This document shows, piece after piece, positions 1,386 through 64,000 of a DNA stretch of 64,000 bases. Numbering within the stretch: position 1 is the first letter of the stretch; every line of letters begins with the position of its first letter. The translations under genes and the position numbers were made by a program. Under the pieces are notes generated by a model. It ran no database searches, was not told where the DNA came from, and saw nothing but the letters and a program-made list of their open reading frames with translations. The stretch comes from Armatimonadota bacterium (lineage in GTDB: Bacteria > Sysuimicrobiota > Sysuimicrobiia > Sysuimicrobiales > Humicultoraceae): the NCBI GenBank assembly GCA_031459715.1, contig JAVKIA010000005.1, forward strand, positions 1 through 64,000, in the 5' to 3' direction.

Positions 1386-1886
1386 TCAGGCGGGCCGCTC
1401 GCGCTGCACCAGCACGGGTAGCACCAGCCGGAACAGGGCCAGGCTGATCGCCGAGTCGATGAGGTGGTGGACCACCGTGCCTGCAGCCACGAAGGCGCCA
1501 GCCTGCAGGCCGGGACCCAGCGCCCACACCGCCACTCCCTCACCGATGGCGTGAATGGGGAGGGCGACCGCCAGGGCCGCCCAGAATCGCGCCCCCCGCC
1601 GGATCATCACGGCGCCCACCACGCCCCAGATGGCGTGGGTGAAGGCCCGGGCCCCGATGACCGGGTTCAGGGTGATGGTGAACCCGATGGTGGCGCCCAG
1701 GCCCACCATCGCCGCCACCGCCGGACTGACCAGCATGGCCAGCATGGAGGGCACGTGGGAGGCAAAGGTGGCCGAATACTGCAGGGTGGGGATGAAGAGC
1801 TGCAGCGGAGTCCCCCGGAAGGCGAAGGGAATGAGCAGGGCCAGCGCCGTCAGCAACCCCCCGACCGCGACCTCACGTGTCTTCAT
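1386..1886 (-). CDS. ECF transporter substrate-binding (S) component, NiaX-like
   Basis: The product is a 166-residue hydrophobic protein with about five or six membrane segments. It has the layout of energy-coupling-factor S-components, which bind a vitamin and dock on a shared EcfA/EcfT module encoded elsewhere. The stretch ASHVPSMLAMLVSP followed by LGATIGF and ALxHAIW-like residues resembles the niacin S-component NiaX more than ThiT or ThiW. It is the distal gene of the thiamin operon, 40 bases after thiD, so a thiamin-related substrate is also possible. ATG 1886 is the only sensible start. Substrate is unproven; the ECF S-component assignment is fairly secure. Confidence 0.6.
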   Translation of the reverse strand: MKTREVAVGGLLTALALLIPFAFRGTPLQLFIPTLQYSATFASHVPSMLAMLVSPAVAAMVGLGATIGFTITLNPVIGARAFTHAIWGVVGAVMIRRGARFWAALAVALPIHAIGEGVAVWALGPGLQAGAFVAAGTVVHHLIDSAISLALFRLVLPVLVQRERPA

Positions 1887-1926
1887 GAACCGTCCCCCTC
1901 TCTGGTCTCACCGTGACTCCGGAAGC

Positions 1927-2730
1927 CTAATCTCCGCGTCCCAGCGCAGCCATGGGATCGGCCGGACCGTGTCCGCCCCCCAGCGGCAGCCCGCCCTGGA
2001 TGGCGGCGGTGACGAAGCGTTTCGCCTGCGCCACGGCCTCGGGAGGCTCCAGGCCCTTTGCCAGCCCGGCGGCGATGGCGGCGGAGAAGATGCAGCCGGT
2101 GCCGTGGGTGTGCCTGGTGTGGACCCGCGGGGCAGCGAACAGGCGCACCTCCCGACCGTCGTAGAACAGGTCCACTGCCTCTTCGCCCGCCTGCAGGTGT
2201 CCCCCCTTCACCACTACCGCGCGAGGCCCCAGGGCCACAATGGCCCGTGCTGCCTCCTCCATCTCTGCGGATGTGCGCACCGGCCGCCCGGCCAGGGCCG
2301 CAGCCTCGGGCAGGTTGGGGGTGACAACCAGGGCCAGCGGCAGGAGCAGCCGGCGCAGGGCCTCCACCGCATCCGGACGCAGCAGGGGCGCCCCGCTCTT
2401 GGCCACCATCACCGGGTCCACCACCAGCCTGCGCAGATCATGCTCCTGGACCTTCTGCGCCACCACCTCGATGATGGCGGCGTTGGCCAGCATGCCGGTC
2501 TTGGCTGCGTCCACCCCGATGTCGCCCACGACGGCGTCGATCTGCGCTCCCACAAAATCGGGCGCCACCTCCAGCACCGCGGTCACCGCACGGGTGTTTT
2601 GCGCGGTGAGGGCAGTCAGGGCGGTGGTGCCGAAGACGCCCAGCGCGGCGAAGGTCTTCAGGTCGGCCTGGATGCCCGCTCCGCCGCCAGAGTCGGATCC
2701 GGCGATGGTCATAGCCCGGGGAATCCTCAC
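1927..2730 (-). CDS. thiD: Hydroxymethylpyrimidine/phosphomethylpyrimidine kinase
   Basis: ThiD phosphorylates HMP to HMP-P and then HMP-PP, the pyrimidine half of thiamin. The 267-residue protein shows the ribokinase-fold signatures [18 protein letters not shown] near the N-terminus and [15 protein letters not shown] near residue 210, where the catalytic and anion-hole residues lie. Length is normal. The start is GTG 2730 with GGAGG five bases upstream, ten bases after the thiL stop. It belongs to the TPP-riboswitch operon. It is a single-domain form, not fused to ThiE. Confidence 0.95.
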
Positions 2731-2740
2731 GTGCGCCTCC

Positions 2741-3793
2741 TCATGAGAGCCGCTGCACCGGCTTGGGTGTGGTACTGGGGCGAAAGTGGTCCCACCCCAG
2801 GGGCTCCAGGGGGAGATGGCGCCCCTCCCGCTGCACGACGCGCCCTTCGTCGGGGGGGACCATCTCTCCGATGACGGTGGCGGCGGTGCCTGTCTCCTCC
2901 CGGATGAGCTGCGCTAGCTCCTCGGCGTGCTGCCGGTCGGCGGCCATGAGCAGCTCGTAGTCTTCCCCGCCGCACAGCGCCAGGTCCAGAGGCGTGAGGT
3001 TAAGGCGGGAAGCCACATCACCCAGCGCGGGATCCACCGGCACGGCGGCGCCCTCCAGGCGCACCCCCAGGTGGTTGGCATCGCACAGCCGCAACAGGTC
3101 GGTGGACAGCCCGTCGGAGAGGTCGATCATCGCCCTCGCCCACCGCGAACGCGCGGCCGCCCTCCCTTCGTGCACGCGGGGCATCGGGCGACGGTGCGCG
3201 GCCAGGAGCCGCTCACCCTCCGGAAGTGTCAGGCGGTGCTCCCAGGCCAGGAGGGCGGCCGCTGAAGCCCCCAGGGTGCCGGTGACCACCAGAAGGTCCC
3301 CTGCCCGGGCGCCGACCCGCCTGAGGAGGAGGTCCGCCTCCACCTCTCCAAGTACCGTCACGTCGGCGATGATCGGCCCCAGGATGGCGGCGAGGTTTCC
3401 GCCGACGACGGTCACGCCGAAGAGAGCGCCCAGCTCCTCCAGCCCACGGTAGAAATCCTCGATCCAGCGCAGGGAGAGAGTTGGGGGCACCGTCAGGGAG
3501 ACCAGTGCGTGCCGGGGAATGCCGCCCATGGCGGCGACGTCGCTGAGGTTGACCGCAAGCGCCCTCCACCCCACGTCCCCGGGGCCGGCCAGGTCGGAGC
3601 GGAAGTGCACCCCCTCCACCTGGATGTCGGTTGTGGCCACCACGTGCCGGCCCGTGCGGGGCCAAAGAACGGCCGCGTCGTCGCCCATCCCTACCAGCAC
3701 CTCCGGGTCCGGGCGCGCCACGATCCGCCCGATAGCCTCCAGCACCCCGGCCTCGCCCACATCCTGCACCTGCAGGTCATCCTCGGGCTGCAC
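2741..3793 (-). CDS. thiL: Thiamin-monophosphate kinase
   Basis: ThiL makes the active cofactor TPP from TMP and ATP as the final step. The 350-residue protein has the PurM-like ATP-binding motif [10 protein letters not shown] near residue 36, [12 protein letters not shown], a VTGTLG segment and [13 protein letters not shown], all diagnostic of ThiL. ATG 3793 lies inside the end of thiE, an overlap of 17 bases that suggests translational coupling. C-terminal [10 protein letters not shown] matches the family. Confidence 0.95.
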
Positions 3794-4412
3794 GCACCAC
3801 CTCCACCAGGGACCTAGTAGCCGCAGCGATATCCGCAGCGGCTACTACCGCCGAGATCACCGCCACGCCGGTCGCTCCAGCCCGGATGGCCTCCGCTGCG
3901 TTGGCAAGGGTGATGCCGCCGATGGCCACCACCGGCAGGCGCACCGCCTGCACGATCCGGCTCAACCCCTCGATGCCTATGGGAGGGCCAGCATCGGCCT
4001 TGGAGGCTGTCTCAAATACGCTGCCCACGCCCAGGTAGTCGGCACCCTCACGTTCTGCCTGCACGGCCTCTTCAACTGTCCCTGCTGAGGCCCCTACGAT
4101 TCGGTCCGGACCTAGAATCCGCCGCGCCGCCTCCACCGTGAGGTCGTCCGGGCCCACGTGCACGCCGTCCGCATCTGCAGCCAGGACCACATCCACGCGG
4201 TCGTTAATCACCAGCGGGACGCCCGCCGGGCGCACCAGCGCCAGCATCCTGACGGCGGTCTCCACCATCTGGCGCGTGGTCAACTCCTTGTCCCTGAGCT
4301 GCACCACCGTGGCGCCCCCGGCGACGGCGGCCGCCGCAATCTCCTCGTGGCTGCGGCCCCGGGCCAGGCGTCGGTCGGTGATCACATAGACAGCCAGGTC
4401 GACAGGCCGCAT
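3777..4412 (-). CDS. thiE: Thiamin-phosphate synthase
   Basis: ThiE joins HMP-PP to thiazole phosphate. The 211-residue TIM-barrel shows VQLRDKELTTRQM, INDRVDVVLAADADGVHVGPDD, GASAGTVEEA and AIGGITLANAAE in the order expected for the family. The start ATG 4412 is six bases after the thiM stop and has no good Shine-Dalgarno, so it is probably translated by coupling. With thiM (thiazole) and thiD (pyrimidine) it completes salvage. Confidence 0.95.
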   Translation of the reverse strand: MRPVDLAVYVITDRRLARGRSHEEIAAAAVAGGATVVQLRDKELTTRQMVETAVRMLALVRPAGVPLVINDRVDVVLAADADGVHVGPDDLTVEAARRILGPDRIVGASAGTVEEAVQAEREGADYLGVGSVFETASKADAGPPIGIEGLSRIVQAVRLPVVAIGGITLANAAEAIRAGATGVAVISAVVAAADIAAATRSLVEVVRAARG

Positions 4413-4418
4413 ACACTT

Positions 4419-5255
4419 TTACGGAGGAGGGAGTTCCGTCCACCGGATGCCTGCCTGCAGCTCCTCCGGGGTCATGGCGAAGAGCGCGTCTACCAGATGC
4501 GGCTTCATCGTCCCCGGTCCGTAGCTCCTGGCTGCGGCCCGCTCGGCGGCCAGCCCGAAGCAGGCCAGACCGGCGGCCGCCGCGGTCACCAACTCCCCCT
4601 GGCCGGCCGCCGCCGCAAAGCACCCTGCGACCGCAGTAGCCATGCACCCCGCGCCGACCACCGCCGCCAGCCAGGGGTGCCCGTTATCGACAACAAGCAC
4701 CCGGCTCCCGTCGGTAATCACATCTCTTGCCCCGGTGACCGCCACTATGGCACCGCGGGCGGCCAGAGAGGCGGCGATTCCCACTACCTCCTCGAGCTCT
4801 GGTCTGTCTTCCGTCTCGACCCCGCGCAGGGTGGCCTTCCGGCCGGCCAGAGCCGCCGCCTCGGCCGGGTTGGCCCGGACCAGCGGCCGTGCAGCGGCGG
4901 CTACGACTCTGCGGGCGGCCTGGGTGCGCAACGCCGACACCCCGGCCCCCACCGGGTCGATGATTACGGGAATCGCCCGCCGGCAGGCTGCGTCCACGGC
5001 GCGCTCGATGGCAGCCAGCCGCTCCGCAGTGGGGGTACCCAGGTTCACCACCAGCGCGTCCGCCCGATCCACGATCTCTGAGACCTCGTCCGGTGCTATG
5101 GCCATGATAGGCGAGGCACCCACGGCGCGGGTGACAGCAGCCACGTCGCCCATGGTGACGAAGTTGGCCAGGTGGTGCACCAGCGGCCGACGCCGCCACA
5201 GCTCGGCCAACAGTCTGGCGCCCGCTTCCGCCGCCTCTGTGTCCTCTCGCCCCAC
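4419..5255 (-). CDS. thiM: Hydroxyethylthiazole kinase
   Basis: ThiM phosphorylates salvaged hydroxyethylthiazole. Family signatures are PLVHHLANFVTMGDVAA near the N-terminus, PIMAIAPDE, NLGT, DPVGAGVSALR, RANPAEAAAL and VGAGCMATAVAGCFAA. I chose GTG 5255 because GGAGG lies nine bases upstream. The frame stays open to GTG 5282, directly after the cytX stop, but that start has no binding site. About 278 residues, normal length. Confidence 0.93.
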   Translation of the reverse strand: MGREDTEAAEAGARLLAELWRRRPLVHHLANFVTMGDVAAVTRAVGASPIMAIAPDEVSEIVDRADALVVNLGTPTAERLAAIERAVDAACRRAIPVIIDPVGAGVSALRTQAARRVVAAAARPLVRANPAEAAALAGRKATLRGVETEDRPELEEVVGIAASLAARGAIVAVTGARDVITDGSRVLVVDNGHPWLAAVVGAGCMATAVAGCFAAAAGQGELVTAAAAGLACFGLAAERAAARSYGPGTMKPHLVDALFAMTPEELQAGIRWTELPPP

Positions 5256-5283
5256 GGTGCCGCCCCTCCGCCGCCCGCCCACG

Positions 5284-6696
5284 CTACCCGTGTGTCGGCG
5301 CAGCCCTGGGGGCCTTCCTCCCGATAGCGGCCACCGCCAGGTACAGCGCGGCGGCGACGATGAAGCTGGGTACGGAAGCCCCCAGCCAGGGAAAGCGGGC
5401 GCTCAGGGGGAAGGGGAGGGACAACGCCGCGGCGGAGCCCCGCAGCAGCGCCTTCCACCCGGGGAGCTCGGTAGGCACGATCCACTGGTAGGCGAGGAAG
5501 CCGGCCAGCCACGCGGCCACCGCCTTCCAGTTGACGCCTCCCCGGTACCAGTACGGCCCGGCCGACCGGTACAGGGCCTCCAGGTCGTAGCGCCGGCGGC
5601 GCAGGACGAAGTAGTCTGCGGCCAGCACACCAAAGAGCGGCACGAAGAAGGCGCCGATCAGGAACAGGAAGGCTTCGTACTGGACGATGTTGACCTTGGC
5701 GGCGACAAGCGCGCAGACTGCGCCCACAACCACAGCCAGCCAGCGCTGCCGCGCCCGCGGGAAGAGGTTCTGGATGCTGACGGCGGTGGAGTAGATGTCG
5801 GCGAAGCCATTGTCCGTCTCGTCCACCAGTAGCAGTAGTAGGGCCAGCCACCCGCCGGCCAGGCTGATGATGGCCGGGATCAGGTCGGTGGTCTGGAGGG
5901 CCAGGACGAAGAGTACTCCCAGCGCGTAGAACCACACGTTGGCTACCAGGTAACCGGCGAAGGTTCCCCAGAACGCTGGAGTGCTGCGGCGGGCAAAGCG
6001 GTTGTAGTCCGCCACCAGCGGGAGCCAGGAGACGGGCATCGCCACCACCAGGTCCACCGCCAGCCAGAAGGGCAGGGTCCCATCGCCGGGCTTAGCCAGC
6101 AAGGCGCGGACGTCGTGATGTGTGAGCAGGTACCAGGTCAGGTAGATGGTGGTAGCGTACACGAGCCAGATGGCAAACCGCTCCAGCCAGCGGCGCACCA
6201 CCACCAGGGGGCCGCCCCAGGCGAGCAGGGTGCAGAAGGCGGCAACCACCAGGACCCACAGGAGCACGTTGTCGTAGCCGAACAGCGTGGTGGAGATGCC
6301 GTTGGCGGCCTGCGACATAATGAAGATCTCAAAGGAGCCCCAGCCGATCAGCTGTACGATGTTCAGCAGCGTGGGGAGATAGGAGCCGCGGATGCCCAAG
6401 GCGGGACGCAGTAGCACCATGGTGGGCACAGCCGTCTCGCTGCCGACCACGCCCGCCAGCGCCAGCAGCAGGTTGCCCACCACCGTGCCGATGACGATGG
6501 CGGCCAGCGCCTGGACCAGCCCCAGCCCGGGCACCAGCAGCGTTCCGGCCAGCAGGACCAGCAGCCCCACTCCCAGGCTGGACCACAGGGCGAAGTAGTC
6601 CAGGTACCCCAGGTACCGCTGCTGGGCCGGAACCGGCTCGATGCCCCACTCCGGCGGTGCCTGGATGCGCAGGCGGGTCAGCGCCTGGACGGCCAT
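5284..6696 (-). CDS. cytX: NCS1-family permease, probable hydroxymethylpyrimidine importer
   Basis: This is a 470-residue integral membrane protein of the cytosine/purine/uracil/thiamin/allantoin permease family with about twelve hydrophobic segments. The N-terminal YLDYFALWSSLGVGLLVL and GSETAVPTMVLLRPALGIRG segments are typical of NCS1 carriers. Members found in TPP-riboswitch operons are called CytX and are thought to import HMP; that assignment is comparative knowledge. It sits between thiW and thiM, and its ATG overlaps the thiW stop by one base. Confidence 0.85.
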   Translation of the reverse strand: MAVQALTRLRIQAPPEWGIEPVPAQQRYLGYLDYFALWSSLGVGLLVLLAGTLLVPGLGLVQALAAIVIGTVVGNLLLALAGVVGSETAVPTMVLLRPALGIRGSYLPTLLNIVQLIGWGSFEIFIMSQAANGISTTLFGYDNVLLWVLVVAAFCTLLAWGGPLVVVRRWLERFAIWLVYATTIYLTWYLLTHHDVRALLAKPGDGTLPFWLAVDLVVAMPVSWLPLVADYNRFARRSTPAFWGTFAGYLVANVWFYALGVLFVLALQTTDLIPAIISLAGGWLALLLLLVDETDNGFADIYSTAVSIQNLFPRARQRWLAVVVGAVCALVAAKVNIVQYEAFLFLIGAFFVPLFGVLAADYFVLRRRRYDLEALYRSAGPYWYRGGVNWKAVAAWLAGFLAYQWIVPTELPGWKALLRGSAAALSLPFPLSARFPWLGASVPSFIVAAALYLAVAAIGRKAPRAAPTHG

Positions 6697-7199
6697 CAGC
6701 GGGCTCCTGGCTGAACCACCAGTGGGACGTGCAGACGTTGCAGGACTTTCAGCAGGAGGAAACCGACCAGGGCGCCGGGGATTGAGCTGGCCAGGAACAG
6801 GTACTGCAGGGTCAGAAGCGGAATAGCGCGATCCATCAACGCGGGTGCCACAACCAGAGCGCCGATAGTGGCGCCCACCGGCCCGGTGCCCAGGGGCTCC
6901 AGCAGCCCGGCCCAGTCCCGCCGCAGGTACTTGTAGCCGAATCCCACGACCAGGGCCCCGGGGATCCCTCCCGGGAACGCCAGCAGCGTCCCCACGCCGA
7001 AGAGGTTCCGCAGGATCGCCGCCACCGTCGCCGCCAGCGCGGCATACCAGGGACCCAGCAGGACGCCGGCGAGGACGTTGGTCATGTGCTGCCAGGGCAG
7101 CAACTTTGCGCCGGCTACCGGAATCGCGCCGGGGACGAATGAGAGGACCACCGGGAGCGCCGCGAAGAACGCCCCCAGCACCAGCTTGCGCGTCTGCAT
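6696..7199 (-). CDS. thiW: ThiW, ECF-type S-component for a thiazole precursor
   Basis: The product is a 167-residue membrane protein with the ThiW hallmark FGVGTLLAFPGGIPGALV (about residues 67-84) and the preceding LLGPWYAALAATVAAILRNL. ThiW is predicted to import hydroxyethylthiazole for ThiM, using a shared ECF module. It is the first gene after the TPP riboswitch. ATG 7199 is preceded by GGAGGTGA four bases upstream. Both halves of thiamin thus have a dedicated importer in this operon (ThiW and CytX). Confidence 0.9.
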   Translation of the reverse strand: MQTRKLVLGAFFAALPVVLSFVPGAIPVAGAKLLPWQHMTNVLAGVLLGPWYAALAATVAAILRNLFGVGTLLAFPGGIPGALVVGFGYKYLRRDWAGLLEPLGTGPVGATIGALVVAPALMDRAIPLLTLQYLFLASSIPGALVGFLLLKVLQRLHVPLVVQPGAR

Positions 7200-7232
7200 C
7201 CCGTCACCTCCCCCGCCCGGAGAAGCGCAAAC

Positions 7233-7254
7233 GCCGGCCCGATACAGGCCGGCG
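7233..7254 (-). terminator. Hairpin between TPP aptamer and thiW, possible expression platform
   Basis: On the minus strand CGCCGGCC pairs perfectly with GGCCGGCG around a seven-base loop, just downstream of the TPP aptamer. It is followed by GTTTGCG, only a weak U-run. It could act as a transcription attenuator or as part of a translational switch with the thiW ribosome binding site. Confidence 0.5.
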
Positions 7255-7261
7255 ATGCTCC

Positions 7262-7352
7262 AGACATCCACTCCCCACGCCAGCATTACCTGGATCGGGT
7301 CCAAAGGGTCTGCGCCGACTAGGCGCACTCTCAGCCCGGTTCCCCGAGCTCC
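7262..7352 (-). promoter_or_regulatory. TPP riboswitch (THI element)
   Basis: Read on the minus strand, the leader contains GGGCTGAGAGTGCGCC, then ACCCGATCCAGGTAATGCTGG and GCGTGGGGA. These are the conserved CUGAGA box and the ACCUGAUC-GGUAAUGCC-GCGUAGGGA core of the TPP aptamer. It sits 63 bases upstream of thiW, so TPP should repress the whole salvage operon. The ends are approximate. Confidence 0.95.
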
Positions 7353-7622
7353 CCCGGATGGTATGATTATCCAGTTGTCTTCACAGCCATGATACCTCAG
7401 GTGGCGGCAAGAGGGAACGCCTTCCCTCAGGCTGCGCCTGTCGGCAGTGTGACAGATCCTCCTCTGGCGGTCACCTGCGCGCCCGCCCTCCTGCGGAGCT
7501 CTCCTCCCGGGGCGTACAATCTGACTGGTGCCCCCGCCTCCGTCCGGGCGGCGGCTGTACGCTCTCCCTGGGGAGGAAGCCTGCCGCGGGACGTCCCGGG
7601 GGCTGGCCGAGGAGGAATCACC

Positions 7623-8120
7623 GTGGAGCCACCGATGGTCGTTGACGCCTTGATCGAGATCCCCAAGGGCAGCCGCAACAAGTACGAGTACGACGCCGCC
7701 AGCGGACGCCTCCGCCTGGACCGGGTGCTCTACTCGCCGCTGCACTACCCGGCTGACTACGGGTTCATCCCGGAGACGCTGGCCGAGGATGAGGACCATC
7801 TGGACGTCCTCATCGTCACCCACGAACCATCCTTTCCCGGCTGCATCGTCCCCGTGCGCCCGGTGGGCGTGCTGGACATGCACGACGAGAAAGGGCGCGA
7901 CGAGAAGATCCTGGCCGTTCCGGTGGGGGACCCCCGGTTCAGTGAGGTGACCGACCTGGCCCATCTGGCGCCGCACTTCCTCAGGGAGATCGAGCACTTC
8001 TTCCAGGTGTACAAGACGCTGGAGGAGAAGGCCACCGAAATCACAGGCTGGGCGGGTGTCCAGGTGGCCCGGCGCACGGTGGCCGCCGCCCAGCAGCGCT
8101 TTCGCCACCGCCAGCGGTAG
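7623..8120 (+). CDS. ppa: Inorganic pyrophosphatase (family I)
   Basis: It hydrolyses pyrophosphate to phosphate in the cytoplasm. The 165-residue protein has EIPKGSRNKYEYD, the DYGFIPET segment, the acidic metal-binding DEDHLDVLIV signature and DEKILAVP, as in bacterial hexameric enzymes. GTG 7623 is preceded by GAGGAGGAATCACC; ATG 7635 is an alternative. Upstream, TACAAT at 7515-7520 may be its -10 box. Confidence 0.95.
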   Translation: MEPPMVVDALIEIPKGSRNKYEYDAASGRLRLDRVLYSPLHYPADYGFIPETLAEDEDHLDVLIVTHEPSFPGCIVPVRPVGVLDMHDEKGRDEKILAVPVGDPRFSEVTDLAHLAPHFLREIEHFFQVYKTLEEKATEITGWAGVQVARRTVAAAQQRFRHRQR

Positions 8121-8130
8121 CAGGGGCAGC

Positions 8131-9888
8131 GTGTCGACGGGCGAGGTGATCGTCCACAGGCTCGATGCGGTCGTGGTGGGGGGCGGGGGCGCCGGGCTCT
8201 ACGCGGCCCTGGAGCTGGCCCGCCACCCGGACCTGGATGTGGCCGTAGTGAGCAAACTCCATCCCCTGCGCTCCCACACCGGCGCTGCGCAGGGGGGTAT
8301 CGGCGCAGCGCTGGGGCATGCCGAGGAGGACCGGCCGGAGTGGCACATGTTCGACACGGTCAAGGGGGGCGACTACCTGGCCGATCAGGACGCCGTGGAG
8401 ATCCTCTGCACTGAGGCCGTGGATGCCGTTTACGAGCTGGAGCGGCTGGGGCTTCCCTTCGACCGCGCGCCAGATGGGCGCATTGAGCAGCGCGTGCGCG
8501 CGGGCGGACACACCCGGAACTTCGGGGAAGCCCCCCTGGCCCGCACCTGCTTCGCTGCTGACCGGACGGGCCAGATGATCTTGCATACCCTCTACCAGCA
8601 ATGCCTGCGCCACGGGGTGCGCTTCTTCGACGAGTTCCAGGTAGTGGACCTGATCATCGAGGAGGGCGCCTGCCGCGGGGTCGTGGCCTGGGAGCTGCGC
8701 ACGGGCCAGGTGCACCTGTTCACCGCGGCCGCGGTCCTGCTGGCCACAGGAGGGTGGGGGCGGATCTACCGGCTCACCACCAACGCCCTTTCCCTCACCG
8801 GAGATGGTGCGGCCATCGCCTGGCGCCGGGGCATCCCCCTGGAAGACATGGAATTCTTTCAGTTCCACCCCACGGGCATCCACCGCCTGGGGATCCTCCT
8901 TTCCGAGGCCGCCCGGGGGGAGGGAGTCTACCTGCGCAACGCCGCCGGGGAGCGGTTCATGGAACGGTATGCTCCCGGCATGATGGAGCTGGCCCCGCGC
9001 GACATCGTCTCCCGCGCCATCTACCGGGAGATCGCTGCCGGCCGTGGCGGGGGCCCACAGGGCGACTGCGTTTTCCTGGACTTCCGTCACCTGCCGGAGC
9101 AGGTGCGGCGGGTCCGGCTGCCCGAGGTGGTTGAGCTGGTCCGAACCTACCTGGGCCTGGACCCGGGGCGGGACCTGATCCCGGTGCACCCCACGGCGCA
9201 CTACGCCGTGGGCGGAATTCCCACGGACCTCTGGGGTCGCGTCGTCCAGGACGAGCAGAACACCGTGCTCCCTGGCCTCTATGCGGCGGGGGAGTGCGCC
9301 TGTGTCTCCGTGCACGGCGCCAACCGCCTGGGGACTAACTCCCTGATCGACATCCTGGTGTTCGGCCGCCGCGCTGGCCGGGACATGGCCCGCTACGCCC
9401 GGGAGGCGGGCGTCCCTGCGACCCCCCAGCGGGCCGCGCGCGACGCCGCCGCACCCCTGGAGGTGCTGCGCGGGCGCCGTGGCCCCGAGTCGGCGGCGCG
9501 CCTGCGCCACGAGCTGCAGGTGGTGATGCAGGAGCACGTCTCCGTCTTCCGCACCGCCGCCGGCCTGCGCCGCGCCCTGGATGCCATCCGCGGGCTGCAA
9601 GACCGCTACGTCAGGGTGGCCCTGCAGGATTCCGGCCAGGTCTTCAACCAGCAGCTGCAGGAGGCCTGGGAGGTGGGTTGCCTGCTGGACGTGGCCGAGG
9701 CGACCACCGTAGCCGCGCTGACACGAGAGGAGAGCCGGGGCGTGCACTACCGGGAGGACTTCCCCCGGCGGGACGATGCGGCCTGGCTGAAGCACACGCT
9801 GCTCGTGCGCACGGCTACTGGTGACTACCGGGTCCGGTTCAAGCCCGTGGTGATCACCAGGTTCCCGCCGCGGGAGCGCGTCTACTGA
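8131..9888 (+). CDS. sdhA: Succinate dehydrogenase/fumarate reductase flavoprotein subunit
   Basis: The 585-residue FAD protein has dinucleotide motif VVGGGGAGLYAALE, the SHTGAAQGGIGAALGH flavin-linkage region, FFQFHPTGI, GEGVYLRNAAGERFM, HPTAHYAVGGI and the YAAGECACVSVHGANRLGTNSL segment. These are typical of SdhA/FrdA; the length exceeds the usual L-aspartate oxidase. GTG 8131 has AGGGG upstream and starts ten bases after ppa. No iron-sulfur or membrane-anchor subunit is next to it, since the following gene is convergent. Partners must be encoded elsewhere. Confidence 0.88.
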   Translation: MSTGEVIVHRLDAVVVGGGGAGLYAALELARHPDLDVAVVSKLHPLRSHTGAAQGGIGAALGHAEEDRPEWHMFDTVKGGDYLADQDAVEILCTEAVDAVYELERLGLPFDRAPDGRIEQRVRAGGHTRNFGEAPLARTCFAADRTGQMILHTLYQQCLRHGVRFFDEFQVVDLIIEEGACRGVVAWELRTGQVHLFTAAAVLLATGGWGRIYRLTTNALSLTGDGAAIAWRRGIPLEDMEFFQFHPTGIHRLGILLSEAARGEGVYLRNAAGERFMERYAPGMMELAPRDIVSRAIYREIAAGRGGGPQGDCVFLDFRHLPEQVRRVRLPEVVELVRTYLGLDPGRDLIPVHPTAHYAVGGIPTDLWGRVVQDEQNTVLPGLYAAGECACVSVHGANRLGTNSLIDILVFGRRAGRDMARYAREAGVPATPQRAARDAAAPLEVLRGRRGPESAARLRHELQVVMQEHVSVFRTAAGLRRALDAIRGLQDRYVRVALQDSGQVFNQQLQEAWEVGCLLDVAEATTVAALTREESRGVHYREDFPRRDDAAWLKHTLLVRTATGDYRVRFKPVVITRFPPRERVY

Positions 9889-9894
9889 AAAGGC

Positions 9895-10314
9895 TCACAG
9901 CCGCCCGGCCGCTCGCAGCGTCCGGTGCGCCGAGCGCATGCAGGCGTTCATGACCACCCGCAGTCCCGCGGCGGCGGCGCGGGCGGCCGCTTCCTCGTTC
10001 ACGATGCCCGACTGCATCCACACCACCCTGGCCCCGATGGCAATGGCGTCCTCCACAACCGGAGGGACCTCCTCGGAGCGACGGAAGATCTGCACCACAT
10101 CCACGGGCTCAGGGACCTCTCGCAGGTTGGGGTAGGCCTTCTCGCCCAGGACCTCCTTCACCCGGGGATTGACGGGGATGATGCGGTAGCCCTGCTGCTG
10201 CAGGTAGGCGGCCACCTGGTAGCTGTCCCGGTGCGGTCTGTCGGACAGGCCCACCACCGCAATGGTCCTGGCCTGCTTCAGGATCTGCTGCACATCCTCC
10301 CAGGTGAGCGCCAT
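9895..10314 (-). CDS. CoA-binding domain protein (YccU family)
   Basis: The 139-residue protein is a single Rossmann CoA-binding domain: TIAVVGLSDRPHRDSYQVAAYL, then IIPVNPRVKEVLGEKAYPNL and VWMQSGIVNEEAA. Members bind CoA but have no settled reaction. ATG 10314 lies 15 bases after the stop of the selenocysteine glutaredoxin gene, so the two are probably cotranscribed. A shared redox or CoA-thiol role is only a guess. It is convergent with sdhA. Confidence 0.85.
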   Translation of the reverse strand: MALTWEDVQQILKQARTIAVVGLSDRPHRDSYQVAAYLQQQGYRIIPVNPRVKEVLGEKAYPNLREVPEPVDVVQIFRRSEEVPPVVEDAIAIGARVVWMQSGIVNEEAAARAAAAGLRVVMNACMRSAHRTLRAAGRL

Positions 10315-10329: not shown

Positions 10330-10563
10330 CTACGTGCCCAGCAGCTCTTGCAGCTTTGCTTTGTTGAAGCCCACCACCGGCACGCCATCGATGACCGTGA
10401 CCGGGGTGGCGGCGAATCCCAGGCGCATGACCTCCTCCAGGGCGTCATCATCCTTTGTGACGTCCCTTTCGGTGAAGGCCACGCCCTGCTGGTGAAGGAA
10501 CTCCTTCACCTTACCGCAGAACAGTCAGCCTGGTTGCGTGTAGACGACCACCGTCCTGGCCAT
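10330..10563 (-). CDS. Predicted selenocysteine-containing glutaredoxin (in-frame UGA, U-x-x-C)
   Basis: Reading through the TGA at 10525-10527 gives a full 77-residue glutaredoxin-like protein: MARTVVVYTQPG, then Sec13, then LFCGKVKEFL. The thioredoxin-fold marks follow: FTERDVTKDD, the cis-proline segment ATPVTVIDG and a VVGFNKAKLQELL end. Glutaredoxins have CxxC exactly where this has UGA-x-x-Cys. The frame continues 64 codons past the UGA with clear family similarity and stops at TAG 10330. ATG 10563 has a GGAGGGAGGAG site upstream. A hairpin placed like a SECIS follows the UGA, and selC and selB are in this window. Likely an electron donor or thiol-disulfide reductase. Alternative: a pseudogene with one Cys-to-stop change. 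Confidence 0.88.
10491..10510 (-). promoter_or_regulatory. Candidate bacterial SECIS hairpin
   Basis: On the minus strand GGTGAAGG pairs perfectly with CCTTCACC around loop AGTT, and an A-T pair could close it further. The stem starts 14 bases after the UGA and the loop 22 bases after it, within the spacing known for bacterial SECIS elements. A G is among the first two loop bases, which SelB recognition usually needs. The hairpin lies inside the coding sequence (Lys-Val-Lys-Glu-Phe-Leu-His), as in other bacterial selenoproteins. Confidence 0.75.
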
Positions 10564-10661: not shown

Positions 10662-10919
10662 TCAGCCGGCCGGGGTTGAGGCCGGGGTGGTGGGGAAGGA
10701 GGTGCGGTCGGGCGCGGGTAGGTGCTGGGCGACGGCCGCTGCGGACTGCGCGTGGGTCGGTGGCGACTGCTGGAAGGGGAGGGGCGAGTCGATTGGGGAG
10801 AGCTGTGTCGGAGAGCAGCCGTCGCCCAACAGGATCCACCGGAGGAGGGCGGCCAGGGCGAAGATCCCGGCCAGGAGGACTCCGGCCCAGAACTCCCAGG
10901 TGACGAGCGCGTCCACCAC
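10662..10919 (-). CDS. Small single-helix membrane protein of unknown function
   Basis: This is an 85-codon gene starting at GTG 10919 with GGAGG five bases upstream, directly behind the GEMM riboswitch and its terminator. The N-terminal third holds one transmembrane segment (FWAGVLLAGIFALAALLRWILL); the rest is a Pro/Ser/Gln-rich tail without motifs. I do not recognise a family. Control by cyclic-di-GMP suggests a surface, motility or envelope role. The selenocysteine glutaredoxin gene starts about 100 bases downstream and may be in the same transcript. Confidence 0.6.
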   Translation of the reverse strand: MVDALVTWEFWAGVLLAGIFALAALLRWILLGDGCSPTQLSPIDSPLPFQQSPPTHAQSAAAVAQHLPAPDRTSFPTTPASTPAG

Positions 10920-10943
10920 GTGCGCCTCCGCGCTCCCGCGTGC

Positions 10944-10975
10944 CAAAAGAAACGCCTTCCGCGGTGGGAAGGCGT
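10944..10975 (-). terminator. Intrinsic terminator of the GEMM riboswitch
   Basis: ACGCCTTCC and GGAAGGCGT form a nine-pair perfect stem around a six-base loop, followed by TTCTTTT on the minus strand. It lies between the aptamer and the small membrane-protein gene, the usual place for a transcriptional expression platform. Confidence 0.88.
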
Positions 10976-10987
10976 CCAGGCCCTCCC

Positions 10988-11066
10988 GTTCGGCAACCCG
11001 GCTGACTGGCGGTGCCAGTCCCGTGGCTTTGCGGACCGCCCTCGCGGGCGGGGTGCCTTTATCGCG
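10988..11066 (-). promoter_or_regulatory. Cyclic-di-GMP-I (GEMM) riboswitch
   Basis: The minus strand reads AAAGGCACCCC, a CCGCCC/GGGCGG stem capped by GNRA loop GCGA, then TCCGCAAAGCCACGGGAC, a GACTGGC/GCCAGTC stem, and AGCCGGGTTGCCG. This matches the GEMM-I layout: GGCA pairs with TGCC, the tetraloop is GNRA, and CGCAAAGCC and GCCGGGTTGCC are the conserved core. The bases equivalent to Vc2 G20, A47 and C92, which contact the ligand, are G, A and C here. This points to cyclic-di-GMP rather than cGAMP. It is followed by a strong terminator. Confidence 0.85.
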
Positions 11067-11147
11067 GGATGTTCCCTATGCTCTTCACCCACATTCTGCC
11101 CGATTCCCCCTTTGGCTAGACCCGCGCCCGGGGGTTCCCGGCGCGGC

Positions 11148-62199: not shown

Positions 62200-62294
62200 T
62201 GGCGGAGGGCCGTGGGAATCGAACCCACCGGAGACCCGTTGAGCCTCCCACCGGTTTTGAAGACCGGGGCCCGCACCAGCGGACGCTGCCCTCC
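62200..62294 (-). tRNA. selC: tRNA-Sec (anticodon TCA)
   Basis: The 95-base RNA on the minus strand has acceptor GGAGGGC pairing with GCCCTCC and a possible A-G eighth pair. The D-stem GTCCGC/GCGGGC has six pairs with a four-base loop TGGT, anticodon stem CCGGT/ACCGG encloses CTTCAAA with anticodon TCA, and a long variable arm follows. The T-stem GTGGG/CCCAC carries TTCGATT, and CCA is encoded. The long D-stem and long acceptor are tRNA-Sec hallmarks. It lies upstream of lptG. Confidence 0.95.
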
Positions 62295-63726: not shown

Positions 63727-64000
63727 CTACCGCGGCGGCGGTGATCCCAGGATCCTGCGGTCGCCCAATCTCCGGGTCAGCCGGATGCCGTCGAAGTACT
63801 CCAGGAGGGCGAGGGCAAACTTCCGGCTGGTTCCCAGCGCGTCGCGCACCTGGGCCACCGTCACCTCTCCGGTAGCCTGCGCCATGGCGACCACGCGGCG
63901 AGCAACCTCCTCGACGATCTCTGCCGCAAAGACTATCCCGGGCGCCACCTCCACCAGCGCTCCCTCTTCCAGCAGCGACTGCACCATCCTGGCAAAGGCC
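63727..64000 (-). CDS. selB: Selenocysteine-specific elongation factor SelB, C-terminal part
   Basis: The frame is open to the right edge, so the 5' part is outside the window. The visible 90 residues form a winged helix ending VRDALGTSRKFALALLEYFDGIRLTRRLGDRRIL, the typical last domain of SelB that binds the SECIS loop. TAG at 63727. SelB brings Sec-tRNA to the UGA codon. With selC nearby it shows that the organism decodes UGA as selenocysteine. Confidence 0.88.
   Translation of the reverse strand, partial: AFARMVQSLLEEGALVEVAPGIVFAAEIVEEVARRVVAMAQATGEVTVAQVRDALGTSRKFALALLEYFDGIRLTRRLGDRRILGSPPPR

Follow-up and report, generated by a model that had tools for sequence, protein, structure and literature searches.

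Does the TGA that interrupts a glutaredoxin (Grx) frame in an uncultured bacterium end the protein, or is it read as selenocysteine (Sec)? The frame lies on the reverse strand of the window, by which we mean the whole stretch of 64,000 nucleotides that was analysed. Its read-through translation is MARTVVVYTQPGULFCGKVKEFLHQQGVAFTERDVTKDDDALEEVMRLGFAATPVTVIDGVPVVGFNKAKLQELLGT, followed by TAG, and the features that bear on the question are collected in Table 1. We conclude that the gene almost certainly encodes a functional selenoprotein, a glutaredoxin-like redoxin whose UGA would be read as Sec; the insertion itself we infer from sequence.

Table 1. Features of the glutaredoxin locus and of the selenocysteine genes on the same contig
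Feature	Position	Strand	Basis or remark
Selenoprotein glutaredoxin gene, 77 residues	10330..10563	-	ATG 10563-10561, TAG 10332-10330; translation, PF00462, homologs
In-frame UGA (predicted Sec13), motif U-L-F-C	10525..10527	-	aligned with Cys-type homologs and with Sec13 of C. oremlandii Grx1; TGA in 48/48 distinct close sequences
Bacterial SECIS hairpin, 8-bp stem	10491..10510	-	loop AGUU at 10502-10499; folding, pairing above codon-shuffled level, synonymous covariation
CoA_binding_2 (PF13380) protein gene	9895..10314	-	next gene downstream of Grx
c-di-GMP-I riboswitch	10989..11067	-	upstream of Grx, same strand
selC, tRNA-Sec (anticodon TCA)	62200..62294	-	RF01852, 80.6 bits
selB, 3′ part	63748..64000	-	gene runs beyond the window end to contig position 65619
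selA	contig 65658-67019		after selB, beyond the window

The glutaredoxin frame and its in-frame UGA

The TGA is the sole internal stop of the Grx frame, with 12 codons upstream and 64 downstream, and stands at residue 13 in the context Q-P-G-U-L-F-C. The original prediction had placed it at the first active-site position of an otherwise whole glutaredoxin gene, and its coordinates and codon counts are correct. When the translation is aligned with Cys glutaredoxins, as had been proposed, U13, the active-site residue that would attack, falls on the Cys of the Cys-type homologs, and Cys16 is kept (UxxC). Thirteen TGAs in the window have open frames on both sides together with a strong SECIS-like hairpin, and just 3 of these, the Grx codon among them, stand in a UxxC or CxxU context.

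Family membership is carried by the match to PF00462, which lies above the gathering score (58.2 bits against a cut-off of 22.9, E 9.5e-16). The best NCBIfam models, each matched over nearly its full length, are GlrX_YruB (TIGR02196), NrdH (TIGR02194) and Uxx-star (NF041212), with scores below their curated cut-offs (75 against 88.55, 61.2 against 85.75 and 56.7 against 66 bits, respectively). We take the relation to NrdH and YruB only in the sense that the protein may work like these redoxins.

A SECIS hairpin follows the UGA

An eight-pair hairpin with loop AGTT had been claimed 14 bases past the UGA, and folding confirms it. The letters GGUGAAGG-AGUU-CCUUCACC form a perfect stem that begins 14 nt past the UGA, where the loop starts at 22 nt and carries G at its second position. 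In the bacterial SECIS model that we applied (PMC13188914), an apical loop of 3-9 nt whose first or second base is G sits on an upper stem of 4-16 bp, at a distance of 16-37 nt from the UGA, and the Grx hairpin lies within these ranges (8 bp, AGUU, 22 nt). The 53 nt from the UGA have a folding energy of -21.6 kcal/mol, a z of -2.33 relative to dinucleotide shuffles. For the 48 nt past it, z is -4.16 when codons are shuffled synonymously, and none of the 300 shuffles is as stable.

A fold with the 16-37 nt spacing and a G at loop position 1 or 2 is found in 42 of the 48 UGA homologs, as against 3 of the 12 Cys homologs. The mean z against synonymous shuffles is -1.27 over the 48 UGA homologs, and because most of the distant ones are singly non-significant, the case for constraint on the hairpin rests on a pooled test. 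Here, the better of two registers (a 4- or 5-nt loop) is scored and codons are shuffled within each amino acid, and the 48 UGA sequences, which are related and not independent, form a mean of 6.60 of 7 pairs, compared with 5.45 +/- 0.12 after shuffling (maximum 5.875 in 1000 rounds).

The codons that build the stem also covary. The Lys and Phe codons change in concert, AAG mostly going with TTC and AAA with TTT (AAA/TTT 19, AAA/TTC 3, AAG/TTT 2, AAG/TTC 17; Fisher p 1e-6), and in 25 of 27 sequences the Ser codon ends in a base able to pair with the one opposite it in the stem, GAG going with TCT, GTG with TCA or TCG, and GCG with TCG (0 of 20000 permutations as good), although these p-values overstate the case because sequences of the same clade are not independent. 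Each of the pairings GTG/TCA and GCG/TCG is found in at least two phyla. The hairpin is thus preserved beyond protein-coding demand, and the Lys/Phe co-switch, with Ser tracking its stem partner, gives a clean example of a SECIS element shaping codon choice.

Selenocysteine genes of the source genome

selC and selB had both been reported in the window; selC is there, while selB is only partly inside (Table 1). The concern that selA and selD might be absent is dispelled, both being present, and the genome holds the full set of selA, selB, selC and selD. Its selD (contig 34, 13927-14850) has an in-frame TGA of its own in the motif G-U-A-S-K and is itself a selenoprotein gene, with a SECIS-like hairpin (GACCUG-GCG-CAGGUC) whose loop begins 27 nt past the UGA. 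Outside the order, selA scores above the curated cut-off in 16 of the 20 UGA-Grx genomes tested; it went undetected in a few UGA-Grx MAGs, which is most easily explained by their incompleteness. One relative (G040) has a second selD-selB-selA set beside the usual one (contig 34, about 4025-8412), with a selD that lacks the UGA; this set is perhaps acquired or contaminating.

Conservation and selection

Homologs were searched in 100 relatives and in a scan of one genome per species over 84,980 species. At the UGA site, 56 rows of the fetched loci have TGA (48 distinct sequences), 6 have TGC and 6 have TGT; neither TAA nor TAG occurs. To the question of whether homologs carry Cys or UGA here, also raised in the original prediction, the answer is that all close homologs have TGA and that Cys occurs in 12, all distant. 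Eighteen further genomes of the order carry the TGA form in full or partial matches; the few stop-free matches within the order are second copies that are only distantly related (31-37% identity). The conserved UGA-Grx is present in Sysuimicrobiota and also in genomes of NC10, Chloroflexota and Acidobacteria. The closest named relative of the source genome is Armatimonadetes bacterium CSP1-3, whose phylum is now Sysuimicrobiota (PMC11604079).

Downstream of the UGA, pN is 0.10 and pS 0.49 in comparison with a congener, and 0.17-0.20 and 0.44-0.75 in comparison with other relatives, so that this region is under purifying selection. Its conservation argues against a truncated product as the only one. 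A tree of 22 Grx sequences is poorly resolved, with one well-supported inner branch, and implies at least three changes between Sec and Cys, the direction of which it does not settle. In three Chloroflexota loci, two UGA glutaredoxins stand in tandem (in L041 at about 3001-3507), the second with the motif Q-P-T-U-x-D-C.

Alternative readings of the UGA

A Cys glutaredoxin could have been broken by a change of TGC or TGT to TGA, which, as a single base change, is the simplest mutation and would leave what ordinary gene callers see as a broken gene. Such a pseudogene is exceedingly improbable, and we rejected it, given a TGA common to 48 distinct sequences over several phyla and never replaced by TAA or TAG, a pN far below pS downstream, and a hairpin held beyond coding constraint. 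An error of sequencing or assembly at the codon might be suspected in a source assembly of 75 contigs, but the same TGA recurs in other genomes, 18 of the order (full or partial matches) and more from further phyla, so that this explanation was discarded as practically without likelihood.

The conservation makes it clear that UGA is decoded as an amino acid, which genome-wide reassignment to a residue other than Sec would also entail. Against this, sdhA, copA, tig, clpP, clpX, thiL and thiE in the window end at ordinary TGA stops, and since UGA ends so many window genes, the code is otherwise standard; with selC, selB, selA and selD all present, there is scarcely any chance that reassignment is correct, and it too was rejected. 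Lastly, the UGA might act mostly as a terminator with minor read-through, the frame serving as a selenium sensor for the CoA-binding gene through translational coupling, which is possible with that gene starting 15 nt past the Grx stop. The strong protein conservation past the UGA implies, however, that the full product matters, and coupling would add to the selenoprotein reading rather than replace it; we regard the sensor as very unlikely. The reading as a real selenoprotein is supported, with none of the three outcomes named beforehand against it (other stop codons at the site, loss of selA or selD, a truncated product only) seen.

Genomic neighbourhood

The Grx gene and the CoA_binding_2 gene are probably co-transcribed. 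The two are adjacent in most Sysuimicrobiota loci; in the loci of other phyla, a search with the window protein detected no CoA-binding gene beside Grx. It can be imagined that Sec-Grx and the CoA-binding protein form a redox pair in Sysuimicrobiota that acts on CoA disulfides or CoA-modified proteins, replaces glutathione and is controlled by selenium, a proposal that we consider improbable.

The c-di-GMP-I riboswitch is shared with the second genome of the genus and is absent from the other Sysuimicrobiota loci scanned. A putative link to Grx expression is possible, and we left the riboswitch out of the mechanism because it is confined to the genus among the scanned loci and lies about 0.4 kb from the gene. 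In both genomes of the genus, the segment corresponding to 10665-11067 (reverse strand) holds the riboswitch, then a GC-rich terminator-like hairpin that has a T-rich tail, and a small conserved ORF, which has no match in Pfam. A CsoR-CopA-CopZ-like copper set starts on the opposite strand. Elsewhere in the window, thiamine genes at 1386-7365 comprise, by sequence, thiL, thiE, thiM, thiD and transporters, and a TPP riboswitch lies at 7254-7365 on the reverse strand.

Proposed mechanism

In the mechanism that we propose for the selenoprotein, SelB and Sec-tRNA(Sec) would recognise the hairpin just past the UGA and insert Sec at residue 13; the match between a SelB and its SECIS can depend on the species. 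By analogy with the family, Sec13 would attack disulfides as the nucleophile, and Cys16 would resolve the intermediate. We favour a thioredoxin-reductase-type donor over glutathione as the likely reductant because no GCS2-type ligase was detected and because the C-terminal portion holds an NrdH/YruB-like V-V-G-F segment. The search for the gamma-glutamylcysteine ligase covered one gshA family, the GCS2 type (PF04107), and gave no match in the source genome; across the set, 12 of 44 genomes have GCS2 matches, including the congener, which has two.

Comparison with known selenoprotein glutaredoxins

The original prediction implied a surprise that the literature does not bear out, as Sec glutaredoxins with UxxC are already a known family (PMC13188914, PMC1088965, PMC7642778). 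They are among the experimentally verified prokaryotic selenoproteins (PMC13188914) and were found in Sargasso Sea data (PMC1088965) and in Geobacter, Moorella and Alkaliphilus (PMC1794560). In the literature searched, we found no report of a Sec glutaredoxin in Sysuimicrobiota and none linking CSP1-3 with selenocysteine, and the main text of PMC11604079 does not mention selenium. The protein biology itself is of a kind already known, and what is new is a conserved member in Sysuimicrobiota, NC10, Chloroflexota and Acidobacteria, lineages for which no report was found. For Sysuimicrobiota, a widespread uncultured phylum, this means that a conserved selenoprotein, one that ordinary gene callers would cut short or miss, is encoded in the genome set.

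Among solved chains, 7c10 and 7c12 come nearest, and both are listed as Glutaredoxin. Their entry codes are not printed in the paper text searched, and we take 7c10 to be the Clostridium (Alkaliphilus) oremlandii Grx1 of PMC7642778 because its residue numbering matches the protein of PMC4479559, in which the active site is U13/C16. C. oremlandii Grx1 differs from the window Grx in sequence (47% identity) and reduces a selenoprotein MsrA (PMC7642778, PMC4479559), whereas no MsrA was detected in the source genome, and MsrA was therefore rejected as a partner. The two proteins share Sec13 and the resolving Cys16, the length class, V-K-E-F-L past the active site and alignability over residues 1-76. 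The Sec glutaredoxins of the Sargasso Sea, Geobacter, Moorella and Alkaliphilus likewise have in common with the window Grx the PF00462/COG0695 family, the UxxC motif and a bacterial SECIS downstream of the UGA.
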